From positions 27,555 through 91,554 of the IMG/VR virus record IMGVR_UViG_3300027782_004053: a stretch of 64,000 bases of DNA. One strand, given 5' to 3'. This document shows, one piece after another, positions 42,080 through 52,525 of this stretch (position 1 is its first letter; each line of letters opens with the position of its first letter). Below the pieces are notes generated by a model, which worked only from the letters and a program-made list of their open reading frames with translations, made no database searches and was not told the origin of the DNA. Made by a program: the position numbers and the translations under genes. The DNA is from a virus.

Positions 42080-42529
42080 ATGTACACCAAAACCTATAAG
42101 GGCAAGTATCGAGTGACAAATGCTGCAAAGTATATGGGAGATATTACTAATATTGTATATCGGTCCTTATGGGAACTCCGATTCATGAAATGGTGCGATT
42201 CCAATGCATCGGTGGTAGAATGGGGGTCAGAAACAGTCGTTGTACCGTATATTTCCCCAATTGACAATAAAGTTCATAGATATTTTGTGGATTTCTACAT
42301 AAAAGTGAAAACAAATTCAAATGGGGTTGAAAAATATTTAGTTGAGATAAAACCGGAAAGATTTACTAAACCGCCAACAATTCCAGAAAGAAAAACCAAA
42401 AGATTTATAGATGAGGTATTTCAGTATGGGGTAAACGATGCAAAATGGAAAGCAGCATTTGAATTCTGTAAAGATCGCAGTATGAAATTTATTATTCTAA
42501 CCGAAAAAGATTTAGGAATAAAGAATTAA
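42080..42529 (+). CDS. gp4: Head completion protein gp4
   Basis: 149 aa (T4 gp4 is 150). YRSLWELRFMKWCDSNASVVEWGSE, with VHRYFVDFYIKVK and YLVEIKPE, shows the nuclease-like (TnsA-type) core E..D..ExK. It is needed to finish packaged heads before tail joining. First gene of the plus-strand late block; only a weak ribosome site is seen. Confidence 0.9.
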   Translation: MYTKTYKGKYRVTNAAKYMGDITNIVYRSLWELRFMKWCDSNASVVEWGSETVVVPYISPIDNKVHRYFVDFYIKVKTNSNGVEKYLVEIKPERFTKPPTIPERKTKRFIDEVFQYGVNDAKWKAAFEFCKDRSMKFIILTEKDLGIKN

Positions 42530-46985: not shown

Positions 46986-47909
46986 TTAGTCGTCGCTCGC
47001 CAACTTTGAGAAATATGACAAAGATTCATCGTCATCGTCAAAATTTACATCCTGTTTAGGAGTAGGTGTTGGAGCTCGAGTAACTTGTGCTGCTGGTTTT
47101 GTAAATGTTGTACCTTCATCTAGATCAACACTTTCTGCAGGTTTAACCGGAGGTGCACCATTAGAAAGAACCATAGTAAGTTTTTTCTTCAACTCATCAT
47201 ATGATTTAAAGTTCTTAGGTTCTAAGAACGCAGTCAATGAATGTTGTTTAGACCAGATTGCCTCGATGATAGAATCATCATTGGATACTGGACTCGGACT
47301 ATCAAATTCTGATTTGTCATAATTACGATATCCCTCTACATTGCGAATCTTCAACTTGAAGTTTGCACCTTCCCAGAAATCAAACGGGTTAAGTGGTTTC
47401 TCATCCTCAAATTGTGGCTCTGCAACGTCTTTAATCTTATCAAAGATTTTCTTACCAAACTTATACAAGAATACTTTACCCTCATTCTCAGGATGCTTAG
47501 TATCCTGTACAATAAGAATATTTGTGATATAAGTTAGTTTACGTTTCTGTTTCCGAGCAACTTCTTTATTTGCTTCTGAACCGGAATTCCATAGTTCAGT
47601 ATTAAGTTCTGAAACAGGATCTTGTTTACCAAGAGTAGTTAAAGAATTCTCAATATACCATTTTCCGGTAGGTCCCTGAAAACCATGATTCCAAATGCGA
47701 ACCCATGGAAGTTCTTCGCCTTTAGGTGGCGCCAAAAATCGGATAACAGCATAACCATTTCCTGCTTTGTCAACTTCTGGTTGCCAGTAGCGGTCATCGT
47801 TTTTGTTGTTAGATTCTGATTGGGGATTTGCGATCTTTTCAACTTCTTTCATTAAAGAATCGAAGCCTCCGCGAGATTTGCGTAGATCTGCTAGTGATGT
47901 GAATGCCAT
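46986..47909 (-). CDS. gp32: Single-stranded DNA-binding protein gp32
   Basis: 307 aa, T4 gp32 size. Core motifs are AVIRFLAPPKGEELPWVRIWNHGFQG and LYKFGKKIFDKI. The C-terminus is acidic (DVNFDDDDESLSYFSKLASDD) for partner binding. No cysteine is present, so the zinc site of T4 gp32 (3 Cys + 1 His) is lost. It coats ssDNA in replication and recombination and binds gp59 and UvsY. A promoter lies at 48033-48061. Confidence 0.94.
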   Translation of the reverse strand: MAFTSLADLRKSRGGFDSLMKEVEKIANPQSESNNKNDDRYWQPEVDKAGNGYAVIRFLAPPKGEELPWVRIWNHGFQGPTGKWYIENSLTTLGKQDPVSELNTELWNSGSEANKEVARKQKRKLTYITNILIVQDTKHPENEGKVFLYKFGKKIFDKIKDVAEPQFEDEKPLNPFDFWEGANFKLKIRNVEGYRNYDKSEFDSPSPVSNDDSIIEAIWSKQHSLTAFLEPKNFKSYDELKKKLTMVLSNGAPPVKPAESVDLDEGTTFTKPAAQVTRAPTPTPKQDVNFDDDDESLSYFSKLASDD

Positions 47910-47948
47910 GATAATTTCCTTTCGTATTGGCGTAGTATGTGCGTAGTA

Positions 47949-48137
47949 TTAACGTCGTTTAATTTTTTGATTTTCGTATGCATAATCTAGATATTCATCA
48001 AATACATCATCGTCTTTACTCGATGGTGTCATATTATATATAATCTTTCGATGCTTGTCAAGTTTGTGATTGCCCTTTTCTACCCGGCGAATCTTCTTCT
48101 CACGCTCGTAATTATCTTTTTTCCTGTAATTGTCCAT
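47949..48137 (-). CDS. Small basic protein, function unknown
   Basis: 62 aa from ATG 48137. The basic N-terminal half (YRKKDNYEREKKIRRVEKGN) is followed by an acidic C-terminus (DDDVFDEYLDYAYENQK). No ribosome site is clear. The strong promoter for gp32 lies inside this frame, so expression could be partial. Not recognised. Confidence 0.45.
   Translation of the reverse strand: MDNYRKKDNYEREKKIRRVEKGNHKLDKHRKIIYNMTPSSKDDDVFDEYLDYAYENQKIKRR
48033..48061 (-). promoter_or_regulatory. Sigma70-type promoter for gp32
   Basis: Minus strand TTGACA (48061-48056), 17 bp, TATAAT (48038-48033). It gives gp32 a separate transcript with a leader of about 115 nt. Confidence 0.65.
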
Positions 48138-48154
48138 TTTGCAATATAAAAATA

Positions 48155-48373
48155 TTAAACATCTTTCGTCTTTTTTGTCGGAACTTTGATATACGGCCAA
48201 GCAAGCAAACGCTTGCTAAGTTCCTGTTGACCGTGCGCAACTTTAATTAAATATCGTTGCGTATCCTTTATCGCTTCTTGTTGGTAAGCTAGTAGTTCTT
48301 GCATTCTAACAAGATCTTCCTCTAGTTTTTTAAACCTACCCTGCGTTTCTAATTCGTTGTCTAAAGATTCCAT
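48155..48373 (-). CDS. Small coiled-coil protein
   Basis: 72 aa. Residues 1-55 are one long amphipathic helix (KKLEEDLVRMQELLAYQQEAI), reminiscent of SlyX-type proteins. The C-terminus is basic. It overlaps the end of gp59 by 38 nt. Function unknown. Confidence 0.55.
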   Translation of the reverse strand: MESLDNELETQGRFKKLEEDLVRMQELLAYQQEAIKDTQRYLIKVAHGQQELSKRLLAWPYIKVPTKKTKDV

Positions 48374-48947
48374 TAAATTTTTCCGTATCTATAGATAAAA
48401 ATGGTTTATACTTTTTAATCAATCTAGATATATCGGGCCAAACTATAGTGTCAGTAATTTCTTTATCAAAAACTTCTACATACTTGTTAAGCTTTTCCAA
48501 TATAACCAAGGTTTCAATGCTAATTGTTTTTCTTAAAAACGCTTTAATTATATATGGGTGTTGACCCGATTGCACATTAAAGATTTCTGATAAACTTAAA
48601 TTTTTATCTTCCATTTCTGCAAGCAGTGCATCCAAATCTTGAGAAAAATTATAAGATAAACTCTCAATTTTCTTTTTCCAAAGTTGATATCTTTCGCCAG
48701 CATCAATATCAAACATCCCTCCCCAGCGATCGCCGGAAACGAAATTTGCAACTAAAAAATTAGCAACCTCTTCGTCAGAATAAGTTTTGGAAATTTTTCT
48801 AATAGAGAAAAGATCAGTTCTTTTTGCAAAAGCTTGTCGGCTTGCTTTGACCTTTCCCCGTTGTTTAACTACATCATATTTGTCTGTTGTAAAATGCAAT
48901 TTAAGAGCAATATACATTTTATAAACTGAAAATTCATCCATTGTCAT
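48336..48947 (-). CDS. gp59: Helicase loader gp59
   Basis: 203 aa, T4 gp59 is 217. MDEFSVYKMYIALKLHFTTDKYD at the N-terminus and FVSGDRWGGMFDIDAGERYQLWKKK are family signatures. It loads the gp41 helicase on gp32-covered forks. Overlaps gp33 by 4 nt. Confidence 0.9.
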   Translation of the reverse strand: MTMDEFSVYKMYIALKLHFTTDKYDVVKQRGKVKASRQAFAKRTDLFSIRKISKTYSDEEVANFLVANFVSGDRWGGMFDIDAGERYQLWKKKIESLSYNFSQDLDALLAEMEDKNLSLSEIFNVQSGQHPYIIKAFLRKTISIETLVILEKLNKYVEVFDKEITDTIVWPDISRLIKKYKPFLSIDTEKFNGIFRQRIRNAG

Positions 48948-49207
48948 AGTGGCAGTTTGCCCCTTGGTTTCATATAATTTTGTTCCTCGGCCTCGTATTG
49001 AATCTTATCCTTGAGGGACTTATTAATTAAGTTTGCAACAGATTCTACATCAATATCAATTTCGTTACAATATTGAATTACTGCATCCATGTAACTAATA
49101 TGTTCCTTAGCAACAAGTTCTTCGATATACAATGAGAACTCGTTAGGCGATCTAAATCGTTTTGTAATAATTAAACTATCGGTTAAAATTTCGTTTTCTT
49201 GTATCAT
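48944..49207 (-). CDS. gp33: Late transcription coactivator gp33
   Basis: 87 aa. SPNEFSLYIEELVAKEHISYMDAVIQYC, then DVESVANLINKSLKDKIQYEAE, matches the gp33 family, which tethers RNA polymerase to the sliding clamp. It starts 4 nt inside the bilin reductase gene, so its translation is coupled to that gene. The C-terminal clamp-binding motif is not obvious. Confidence 0.82.
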   Translation of the reverse strand: MIQENEILTDSLIITKRFRSPNEFSLYIEELVAKEHISYMDAVIQYCNEIDIDVESVANLINKSLKDKIQYEAEEQNYMKPRGKLPL

Positions 49208-49878
49208 TTTAATTCTGGAAATAAAATTTCGTCCATGAAGTTTTTAAAATTGGTTTCGTCTACACCTAGATTAACCATCATTGCTAATGTATGATGATTC
49301 AACTTTTGATTAATACAATAATTGTTATAGGGGTCTATATAACTATTACTATTTCTCTCATTCCCTACATTATAAAGGAAATAATCTAAATTGTCTATAG
49401 CAACGTTAATCAATTTATCCAATTCTTCTTCTGTACTAACATTTCCTGCCGCAAGCATTCCCGGGCTAAAAATCCGCTTTGCCCAATCTGGTAGTTCTCT
49501 TGGCTTAGTCCAATTTATAGATGACATCTTATCTTGATACCAATTATAAATTACACTATCGCCAGATTTAGAAAAATCATGGAATGCGCCAGTAATCTTA
49601 TTTGCTCCACATACCACATCAAATCCAAATATTGGAGCAGGGTCATTGAGATGCGGAAATACAGTCATGTGCATAACCCACATCTTTTTAGATTCTCTTG
49701 CATCTACAATTTCAATATGTGCTCGTCGAAACTTATCAGATTTGAATAGATAATTCTTCCAAGTGAAATCAATATCGGTGTGCTCATATTTGCTGTCTAT
49801 TGGCAAAACATCACACTCTTTGAATTTGCCAATAATTGATTCTGATAATGGAATCATCTTATCCCATACCATAGACAT
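49204..49878 (-). CDS. Ferredoxin-dependent bilin reductase (PcyA/PcyX/PebS family)
   Basis: 224 aa. The core block is HMTVFPHLNDPAPIFGFDVV, and the family C-terminus is visible as a long helix with NQKLNHHTLAMMVNLGVDE before DEILFPEL. Relative to PcyA, the substrate-site residues Glu76, His88 and Asp105 align with E56, H70 and D87. H70 to D87 is 17 residues, exactly as in PcyA. It would reduce biliverdin with electrons from ferredoxin, giving phycocyanobilin, phycoerythrobilin or another bilin. Product specificity cannot be read. It follows heme oxygenase with a TAATG overlap. No ferredoxin gene is present in the window. Confidence 0.85.
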   Translation of the reverse strand: MSMVWDKMIPLSESIIGKFKECDVLPIDSKYEHTDIDFTWKNYLFKSDKFRRAHIEIVDARESKKMWVMHMTVFPHLNDPAPIFGFDVVCGANKITGAFHDFSKSGDSVIYNWYQDKMSSINWTKPRELPDWAKRIFSPGMLAAGNVSTEEELDKLINVAIDNLDYFLYNVGNERNSNSYIDPYNNYCINQKLNHHTLAMMVNLGVDETNFKNFMDEILFPELK

Positions 49879-50402
49879 TAGTTATATTCCTTAACCATAT
49901 TGATATTGTGGTCGAATGCAATGTTTGCCTCATCTGCCATTTCAATAACTAACTTAGATCTAACCTTGGCAATTAATTCTTCTCTATTTTCAAACTTGTA
50001 CATCTTTCCAGAACCAGGCACGAGTTTTGCAAGAGCTTGACCACCAAATAAATCACCCATGTGGCGCACATAGATATGTGCCATTGCATCTTGTGCATTG
50101 TCTATGCTAAGTAAATAGTTCACATAGTCTACAGTAGACTTTCTGGGCGAGTATAAAGTTGTAGGAGTAGTAAGCTCATTAATGTCATCTCTAATGTTTG
50201 CAGATCGTTTTAATTCCAACATATCATCAAATAGACCAAACTTGTCACCTACATCTTCTTCCAATACATGGTATATAAAACCAAGTTGAAATAAGTAATC
50301 TGCGTATTCTTCTCTTGTTACTGATTTTTTAAAGATAGCTTTAATAAACGGTTGCGTTTCAGCTTCTTTATGCTTTTCGTGGGTTAGATCTTTTAGACTC
50401 AT
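49878..50402 (-). CDS. Heme oxygenase
   Basis: 174 aa, shorter than cyanobacterial HO1 (about 240). The proximal heme ligand is H11 in THEKHKEAE. The distal helix motif GDLFGGQ lies at 116-122 (canonical GDLSGGQ). It opens heme to biliverdin, releasing iron and CO. It starts 1 nt after the stop of the membrane protein and shares its stop with the bilin reductase start, so the two make a two-step heme-to-bilin pathway. HO1-type enzymes also need ferredoxin or a similar donor. Confidence 0.92.
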   Translation of the reverse strand: MSLKDLTHEKHKEAETQPFIKAIFKKSVTREEYADYLFQLGFIYHVLEEDVGDKFGLFDDMLELKRSANIRDDINELTTPTTLYSPRKSTVDYVNYLLSIDNAQDAMAHIYVRHMGDLFGGQALAKLVPGSGKMYKFENREELIAKVRSKLVIEMADEANIAFDHNINMVKEYN

Positions 50403-50403
50403 T

Positions 50404-50715
50404 TTATTTAAATAGTATTAGGGCAAGGAAACAAGAATGTACAATAAATCCTGCCCCGATAGTAACAATAGTCAACATATCTTTAAGAATTACTGCGCGG
50501 GCAAATAGTAGTGATAATCCTGCCCAAACAAATAGAACAAAATCTACAGGAGGCATCCTATCCGATAGACCAGACATTAATGAAATCATTGTCGGCACTG
50601 TTGATGCATGGATTAGTACAATACCAATCCATGCAATAGTTTCTGCAGTTGCAACTGTTAGTGTTGTCTTGCAGTATTCAATAACATTTTGTAGTGAGGG
50701 TAGTTTAAAGATCAT
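50404..50715 (-). CDS. Small polytopic membrane protein in bilin operon
   Basis: 103 aa with three predicted membrane segments, about 21-45 (TIAWIGIVLIHASTV), 57-75 (FVLFVWAGLSLLFAR) and 79-101. The middle loop is GLSDRMPPVD. It lies 3 nt after SleB and 1 nt before heme oxygenase. Not recognised. It could be a lysis accessory with SleB (holin/pinholin) or belong functionally with the bilin enzymes. Confidence 0.6.
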   Translation of the reverse strand: MIFKLPSLQNVIEYCKTTLTVATAETIAWIGIVLIHASTVPTMISLMSGLSDRMPPVDFVLFVWAGLSLLFARAVILKDMLTIVTIGAGFIVHSCFLALILFK

Positions 50716-50718
50716 AAT

Positions 50719-51249
50719 TTATTTGTAAAAGATATGGTTGCCAATTTTTGCGATTTGTTGTTTATTCCAATTAGGAGAAACGTATGAAGCATGATAATAC
50801 ATTGCCTCATTGAGGCCCTTTAATCGAAATCCTTCTAAAAGAACTTTCTTTGCGACTTCATATGATTCCTTATATGCAGCTGCATAAATTGGTTTTACTT
50901 TTGTTGATGTTTCGCAATACCAACTAAACTGACAAATTACTTTGTCATAAATTACGTTACGTTGATATACTACTTTGCAAATATCGTTAGGAAATTTGCT
51001 TGATGCTGCTCTATTGAGCGTTACTTGAGCAACTGCAACTTTGCCTTCAAATGGCTCCGTTGCTGCTTCGTAGTAAATGTTATGTGCGAGACAATTTAAT
51101 TGTTGCTCTCTTATGGCGACTGTAATGTCACTATCCTTAAACTTTAATTCTCTTAAATTATTTAATTTTTCGGTTGTTACTTGAACAAAAATAGATACTA
51201 ATAGTATTGAGGATAGAAATAATAGAAATGATTTTGTATAAGTTTTCAT
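50719..51249 (-). CDS. SleB-type cell wall hydrolase with membrane anchor
   Basis: 176 aa. Residues 7-26 form a signal anchor (SFLLFLSSILLVSIFVQV). The catalytic domain has NCLAHNIYYEAATEPFEGKVAVAQVTLNRA, then CQFSWYC, characteristic of the Hydrolase_2/SleB family (spore cortex lytic type). A candidate signal-arrest endolysin that degrades peptidoglycan. First gene of the bilin/gp33 operon. Confidence 0.82.
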   Translation of the reverse strand: MKTYTKSFLLFLSSILLVSIFVQVTTEKLNNLRELKFKDSDITVAIREQQLNCLAHNIYYEAATEPFEGKVAVAQVTLNRAASSKFPNDICKVVYQRNVIYDKVICQFSWYCETSTKVKPIYAAAYKESYEVAKKVLLEGFRLKGLNEAMYYHASYVSPNWNKQQIAKIGNHIFYK

Positions 51250-51317: not shown

Positions 51318-51755
51318 TTAGAAACTAAGTTTTACACCCGCAGTAACTCGGCTACCATTTTGTGCCTTGATAACATCTTGGCCAACTTGATAAGAGTAAT
51401 CTACAGTAGCGGATACTTTATTTGTTAGAGGTACCGAAGCACCAGCACCAACAATTACAGCATATCCATCTGGATCAACTTTGCTGTCAACAAATGCACC
51501 GCTTCCTTTTACAGCAACTGATACGGGACCAATTTTTGTAAGAGTTTTAGAAGTACCTACACTATATGTGTCTGACGAAATATTACGAGTAAAGCCACCG
51601 GTTACATCCGCAACACCAATCTTACGACCGATAGTTACGCCCCAAACATTTTCGCTTGAGCTAATGTTAGTACCACCATTGATACCAACTTCTGTGGCCT
51701 GCGCTGCAGTTACTGCACTAATAAGTGCGGTTACAAGTACAAGTTTTTTAATCAA
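51318..51755 (-). CDS. Phage-encoded outer-membrane beta-barrel protein
   Basis: 145 aa. The signal peptide is residues 1-20 (cut AQA|TE). The rest is a series of alternating hydrophobic/polar strands (GVTIGRKIGVADVTGGFTRN and KVSATVDYSYQVGQ) ending in the OMP-type terminal Phe (GVKLSF). The size fits an eight-stranded barrel. It would be inserted in the host outer membrane, perhaps for superinfection exclusion or permeability change. A strong ribosome site (AGGAGAAAA) precedes it. Hairpin repeats flank the gene. Confidence 0.7.
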   Translation of the reverse strand: MIKKLVLVTALISAVTAAQATEVGINGGTNISSSENVWGVTIGRKIGVADVTGGFTRNISSDTYSVGTSKTLTKIGPVSVAVKGSGAFVDSKVDPDGYAVIVGAGASVPLTNKVSATVDYSYQVGQDVIKAQNGSRVTAGVKLSF

Positions 51756-52496: not shown

Positions 52497-52525
52497 ATTA
52501 TAACAGAAATTTAGAAAAATGTCAA
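52497..52525 (-). promoter_or_regulatory. Strong extended -10 promoter
   Basis: Minus strand TTGACA (52525-52520), 17 bp, TGT+TATAAT (52502-52497). It drives the secreted protein, and by read-through the tmRNA and the following operon. Confidence 0.8.

Follow-up and report, generated by a model that had tools for sequence, protein, structure and literature searches.

We propose, with good confidence, that a cargo gene of metabolic function, encoding a ferredoxin-dependent bilin reductase (FDBR), carries the promoter of the essential genes gp33 and gp59 in a large phage clade, and that the enzyme can be deleted or swapped (PcyA-like or PcyX-like) while the promoter is usually kept, so that retention of the cargo and regulation are entangled. 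The DNA analysed here (the window, 64,000 nucleotides) corresponds to bases 27555-91554 of a linear 91,554-base IMG/VR virus record. The explanation of the locus as a whole, which we hold with reasonable confidence, is that of an early auxiliary metabolic cassette of a Melnitz/Mosig-related T4-like phage, made of a heme oxygenase (HO) gene and an FDBR gene in which the gp33-gp59 promoter is embedded.

A HO-FDBR cassette between tmRNA and gp33 in a T4-like phage

The source of the window is a T4-like phage, whose host is probably a freshwater or estuarine bacterium. It groups with the Melnitz/Mosig-related T4-like phages (Kyanoviridae), with T4-type capsid, sheath and baseplate genes as well as gp32, gp33 and gp59, and the cassette itself is surrounded by a T4-like gene set (sheath, scaffold, baseplate, gp59, gp33 and gp32; Table 1). 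Its capsid protein shares 66% identity with the counterparts in Methylophilales phage Melnitz (66.5%) and Pelagibacter phage Mosig.

Table 1. Features of the HO-FDBR locus in the window
Feature	Position	Strand	Evidence
gp32-like ssDNA-binding protein	46986..47909	-	PF08804 E 9e-49; PHROGs agrees
Perfect sigma70-type promoter upstream of gp32	48033..48061	-	TTGACA-N17-TATAAT 12/12
gp59-like helicase loader	48336..48947	-	PF08993/PF08994; phrog_269
gp33-like late-transcription coactivator	48944..49207	-	PF16805 E 2e-24; PHROGs agrees
FDBR, 224 aa, triad E56/H70/D87	49204..49878	-	PF05996, 5owg, trees, fold
Putative promoter inside FDBR coding sequence, TAGACA-N17-TATAAT (11/12), codons 161-170	49369..49397	-	conservation
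HO, 174 aa, proximal His11, GDLFGGQ	49878..50402	-	PF01126 E 4e-21
103-aa hydrophobic (membrane) protein, directly upstream of HO	50404..50715	-	sequence, synteny
Cell-wall hydrolase (Hydrolase_2)	50719..51249	-	PF07486 E 2e-26
YfaZ-like outer-membrane protein	51318..51755	-	PF07437 E 7e-6
Permuted (two-piece) tmRNA, betaproteobacterial type, tag ANDELFALAA	51739..52129	-	ARAGORN; Rfam
Perfect sigma70-type (early) promoter heading operon, TG before -10	52497..52525	-	TTGACA-N17-TATAAT

The membrane gene and HO are separated by a 1-nt gap, HO and FDBR overlap by 1 nt, and both FDBR/gp33 and gp33/gp59 overlap by 4 nt. These junctions bear out the original prediction, made from the sequence before this analysis, that HO-FDBR is tied to gp33-gp59 by overlaps of 1-4 nt. 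The gp33-gp59-gp32 operon that it described holds for the identities of the three genes (Pfam, PHROGs) but not for their contiguity, as gp32 is not directly beside gp59: two small ORFs and a promoter-like site of gp32's own lie in between. Compared with the close relatives L001 and L003, dN/dS is 0.05-0.09 for HO and FDBR, in the range of gp33, gp59 and gp32, and both cassette genes are under purifying selection. Within window positions 46986-50402, gp33, gp59 and gp32 are (nearly) identical to those of L001, while HO and the genes upstream have a dS of about 0.25-0.5; a recombination breakpoint relative to L001 probably lies within FDBR.

IMG/VR was searched with FDBR as a query, which gave 80 loci. 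The gene order HO-FDBR-gp33 was found in all 80, with gp59 next wherever the contig extends. A search with gp59 served as an independent sample, avoiding selection by FDBR itself, and gave 65 loci with readable upstream DNA, of which 58 have FDBR, two have HO only and five have neither. In L157, L189, L191 and L192, gp33 directly follows the 103-aa membrane gene, which amounts to an empty site; HO-FDBR is also missing in L197 and in Melnitz. The membrane gene is also found, by synteny, at loci without HO-FDBR. Directly upstream of HO, one relative (L025:5236-5844) and 40 other loci have a gene of a family labelled 'ferrochelatase' (phrog_2954; Mosig_00059 in L084:2357-3127). This label looks wrong: the family has an invariant HxD...H, and its fold resembles that of Fe(II)/2-oxoglutarate prolyl hydroxylases. 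Relatives also have further cargo genes close to HO, among them tryptophan halogenase, rubrerythrin and fatty acid desaturase (L058:3527-5068, L070:7795-8232, L074:2471-3250).

Further from the cassette, the window encodes a GTP cyclohydrolase I (PF01227, 1794-2468, minus strand), and a QueD/6-pyruvoyl-tetrahydropterin-synthase-like ORF was recognised by eye at L083:10631-11104; the two perhaps have a role in a modified guanine of the phage DNA. A TnsA-like endonuclease domain (PF08722) is found at 42080-42529 (plus strand), with a DNA end protector and a tail-tube protein as neighbours. Record bases beyond the window (L082:591-13377) hold a long run of genes of sugar or surface-polysaccharide type, judged by eye from translations.

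The tmRNAs of the window (RF01850 102.9 bits, RF04321 126.3 bits in Rfam) and of its relatives are permuted and score best with the betaproteobacterial model, which suggests that the host may be betaproteobacterial. This is a weak hint, since Melnitz, with a Methylophilales host, carries a tmRNA that scores best with the alphaproteobacterial model, so that tmRNA type and host differ (PMC9004378). Searches of Pseudomonadota samples by tmRNA BLAST and with RF01850 gave no close match, and a beta-type tmRNA was above the cut-off in one of the 399 genomes. The phage tmRNA tags are diverse: ANDNSYRMVA, found in L013 and others, is without the usual LAA end, and tags are longer in L048, L049, L064 and L061.

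Predicted sigma70-type promoters and probable timing of expression

The window contains 14 sites that match TTGACA-N17-TATAAT with no more than one mismatch (1.8 expected), a number reached in none of 100 shuffles. Eight of them are perfect, and five of these eight, all located beyond 52 kb, precede an ORF by no more than 120 nt. Among the five is the site at 52497, which lies upstream of the tmRNA and is kept in three close relatives (L001-L003); in 36 other loci, the 700 nt preceding the tmRNA gave no promoter of this type. The perfect site upstream of gp32 lies inside a small ORF and is conserved in relatives, those without HO-FDBR having a weaker form of it. The T4 late motif TATAAATA is overall not more frequent in the window than by chance, but seven of its ten copies are located 34-66 nt upstream of an ORF start (about 4% expected), mostly of structural genes. 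None was found within the tmRNA-HO-FDBR-gp33 operon. From the sigma70-type promoter at the operon head and the missing late motif, we infer that this operon would be expressed early, via host RNA polymerase. The locus had been described before as a late-transcription coactivator operon, which fits its position but not its promoter motifs, as these point to an early operon.

A probable promoter embedded in the FDBR coding sequence

A further site, a point missed by the original prediction, is located inside FDBR, at about +480 of the gene and about 165 nt upstream of gp33. The copy in the window is imperfect (11/12, with TAGACA). A site with at most one mismatch is present in 80 of 81 FDBR genes, and in the 39 loci with a tmRNA it is always at one fixed position. 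Codon usage was compared among 21 FDBR representatives of less than 90% identity, over 98 columns with a conserved degenerate residue. Only three of these columns are codon-invariant, D162, Y169 and N170, and they are the codons of both hexamers. D162 uses the minority codon GAC in 19 of 19 sequences, compared with 65 of 336 for Asp elsewhere. The chance of finding exactly these three among the 98 columns is about 7e-6, and the site shows 9 mismatches where 36.6 are expected under synonymous recoding, although shared ancestry is not fully accounted for in either number; the control for it is the comparison among columns within the same FDBR genes. The FDBR gene seems to carry a promoter for gp33-gp59, as judged from this conservation.

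The invariant codons might instead reflect a constraint on the protein or the RNA, with no promoter, and the clade does conserve the encoded stretch IDNLxxYLYN at the protein level too. We find this very improbable, as synonymous choice is fixed solely at the hexamer codons, decayed non-coding remnants of the gene (see below) retain both hexamers while the residues between them change, and this phage has an eightfold excess of sites with this consensus. Another overlapping signal could also produce the codon invariance.

Loss and replacement of FDBR and fate of the putative promoter

The embedded promoter can be followed in loci where FDBR was deleted or swapped. In L163 and L193, FDBR is gone except for 84 nt between HO and gp33 that match the FDBR of a relative at 93% identity; this remnant holds a perfect promoter (12/12). 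In L165/L166, L177/L184, L178/L179/L181 and L183/L194, an FDBR about 40% identical to that of the window, with Asp instead of Glu at the site of PcyA Glu76 (Asp-type), is found at the same place. Behind the stop codon of this FDBR, the old Glu-type gene survives as a leftover of 66 nt (98% identity) or 92 nt (85-90%); decay has gone further in L178 and L183. The perfect promoter (12/12) is kept in nine of ten Asp-type loci, and over the promoter the remnants are 85-98% identical to old-type FDBR DNA. In the swapped locus L159 the promoter is gone, and in L190, where a Glu-type FDBR is present, the site is only 10/12; the embedded promoter is therefore not indispensable. It is absent in all five loci without HO-FDBR.

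With the exception of L159, gp33 and gp59 of the swapped loci share 97-100% identity with their counterparts in unswapped ones. The swaps therefore look recent and, as each group matches a different Glu-type locus, would represent at least three events. Altogether, three to four lineages have kept the promoter in leftover DNA after deletion or swap of FDBR, and one further lineage has lost it. In the reading that we prefer, the promoter acts for gp33-gp59 and the cargo gene is its carrier. A clean loss of the cargo gene would then deprive the phage of a promoter for essential genes, and the embedded site could in this way help to hold the cargo in place.

The heme oxygenase and the bilin reductase

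The HO protein scores 76.2 bits with PF01126 (cut-off 23) and has the profile, proximal His and GDxxGGQ distal helix of the HO-1 type. H11 and GDLFGGQ align in register with solved heme oxygenases (PDB) and are conserved among relatives, in agreement with the proposal that this gene encodes a heme oxygenase. The enzyme is predicted to convert heme to biliverdin IX-alpha.

For FDBR, the family profile, which the original prediction had named as a means to refute it, gave a clear match (PF05996, E 2e-18, 67.3 bits for a cut-off of 31). The best PDB sequence match is the PcyX EBK42635 (5owg, E 3e-44), with PcyA next. An AlphaFold model built from an alignment of relatives has a mean pLDDT of 94.4; its best fold matches are PcyA structures, with PcyX 5owg at TMt 0.88, and every significant match is either an FDBR or one of the red chlorophyll catabolite reductases, a related family. 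E56, H70 and D87 align with PcyA Glu76, His88 and Asp105, as had been proposed. All 80 IMG/VR relatives share with the window the Glu at the Glu76 site (within HIEIVD or HVEIVD) as well as His70 and Asp87, whereas PcyX and the Mosig FDBR have Asp at this position.

The subtype is less straightforward. A first tree places the Glu clade as the sister group of PcyX, inside a branch that also contains alphaproteobacterial PcyA and has been named the AX clade (PMC10151467). When freshwater Asp-type genes were added, the Glu clade was nested among them, with a long branch to the outgroup, so the grouping with EBK42635 and Mosig varies with sampling. The window protein has the Glu-His-Asp triad of PcyA and lacks the Asp of PcyX, although with 82 bits it stays below the NCBIfam PcyA equivalog cut-off of 206. 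The PcyX type that had been guessed is supported only in part, by a position beside PcyX that depends on the tree, and not by this residue. The protein should not be filed as PcyX, and phycoerythrobilin is not its default product.

It is nevertheless quite conceivable, if somewhat less probable, that FDBR makes phycoerythrobilin like marine PcyX and that Glu56 is neutral. Among solved and characterised enzymes, PcyX is the nearest to it, and the tree that includes freshwater genes puts the Glu clade inside the Asp-type sequences. An Asp-to-Glu exchange in PcyX, in work by Ledermann et al. of 2018 (FEBS J), reportedly gave no conversion to PcyA. Whether Glu or Asp stands at this site is not enough on its own to settle the product. 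However, the complete PcyA triad is present in all 22 alignment rows of the Glu clade, and nearly all have Val at the position of PcyA Ile86, where PcyX has Met. Moreover, Glu76 is specific to PcyA and needed for 18-vinyl reduction (PMC10151467), and the FDBR of freshwater phage CB_2 makes phycocyanobilin, which was related to its missing Asp (Asp55; PMC11480375). On these grounds phycocyanobilin appears the slightly likelier product. No bacterial FDBR closely related to that of the window was found: the best 'bacterial' matches (L091-L093) are 38-48% identical, PcyX-like, and probably phage contigs within MAGs.

Proposed mechanism and benefit of the cassette

In the proposed mechanism, host RNA polymerase would transcribe the operon, from the tmRNA through HO and FDBR to gp33 and gp59, from the sigma70-type promoter. 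HO would open heme to give biliverdin, iron and CO. With host ferredoxin as the donor, FDBR would reduce biliverdin to a phycobilin, and the promoter embedded in FDBR would provide a second transcript for gp33 and gp59. The donor is assumed to come from the host because no Fer2 ferredoxin was found in the phage record. The phage records also gave no bilin acceptor protein. The cassette had been said to stand without photosynthesis or phycobilisome genes; indeed, 13 related virus records gave no Photo_RC match and no phycobilisome match above the cut-off. Sub-threshold phycobilisome matches inside ORFs of 1636 and 2724 aa were taken as chance, and AlaS, considered as a third cassette gene, was not found in the 13 records.

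Regarding the benefit, we rather favour the reduced bilin, which may act as a ligand, a chromophore or an antioxidant, over iron release as what is selected, since the FDBR protein is under purifying selection and was repeatedly replaced by another FDBR. The two HO-only loci, which are one lineage (L163/L193), leave room for a use of iron or biliverdin. The benefit might then be iron released by HO, or removal of heme, with FDBR merely clearing biliverdin, and the Fe(II)/2-oxoglutarate dioxygenase-like gene beside HO in 41 relatives, as well as several genes annotated in this way upstream of HO in Mosig, would be in line with it. We consider this unlikely, given the selection on FDBR and the replacement of the displaced FDBR by another in at least three lineages. 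Supply of a chromophore to a host phytochrome seems more doubtful still. Bacterial phytochromes generally use biliverdin itself, and no PHY domain was found in 13 related phage records, several of which are fragments. In its favour, HO and PcyA of CB_2 assemble a functional phytochrome in E. coli (PMC11480375). It is puzzling that phages with non-photosynthetic hosts carry HO-FDBR cassettes, and the co-occurrence has been termed enigmatic (PMC11480375). The present clade is a large natural data set for this question, with no cassette, HO only or either of two FDBR types at one site of near-identical phages. The embedded promoter is also a testable case of an auxiliary gene becoming hard to lose, and a warning that conservation and synteny of auxiliary genes need not reflect metabolic benefit alone.

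Comparison with known systems

The HO-FDBR pair is a known kind of phage cassette, present in marine PcyX phages, pelagiphage Mosig and freshwater CB_2. The marine hemO-pcyX phages (EBK42635, 5owg) and Mosig EXVC030M share with the window the two families, HO first, overlapping genes and a T4-like background, with 36.6% identity over 99% of the FDBR. They differ in that their FDBR has Asp where the window has Glu; moreover, the Mosig pair precedes neck and terminase genes and not gp33, and the homologous Mosig DNA has no embedded promoter. The vHemO-vPcyA pair of CB_2 (PMC11480375), compared by its published description, also consists of HO and an FDBR in which the PcyX Asp is absent, but CB_2 has alaS as well, a gene absent from 13 records related to the window. 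Melnitz EXVC044M, the nearest isolate by capsid, has the same order PhoH-nuclease-tmRNA-gp33-gp59-gp32, but no HO or FDBR between tmRNA and gp33, and its tmRNA is of the alpha type and not the beta type. Alphaproteobacterial PcyA (AX clade, PMC10151467) has the full Glu-His-Asp triad and belongs to the same large branch, but it is just 24-25% identical and chromosomal. Finally, cyanophage PcyA and PebS are likewise FDBRs carried as phage cargo, but they are 23-28% identical, fall in other branches and have cyanobacterial hosts. A Glu-type clade fixed before gp33, an embedded promoter and in-place swaps were not found in the literature searched, outside which most subscription journals lie. What is new within this known kind of cassette is that cargo and regulation of essential genes are intertwined, with a probable promoter (TTGACA-N17-TATAAT) inside FDBR before gp33.
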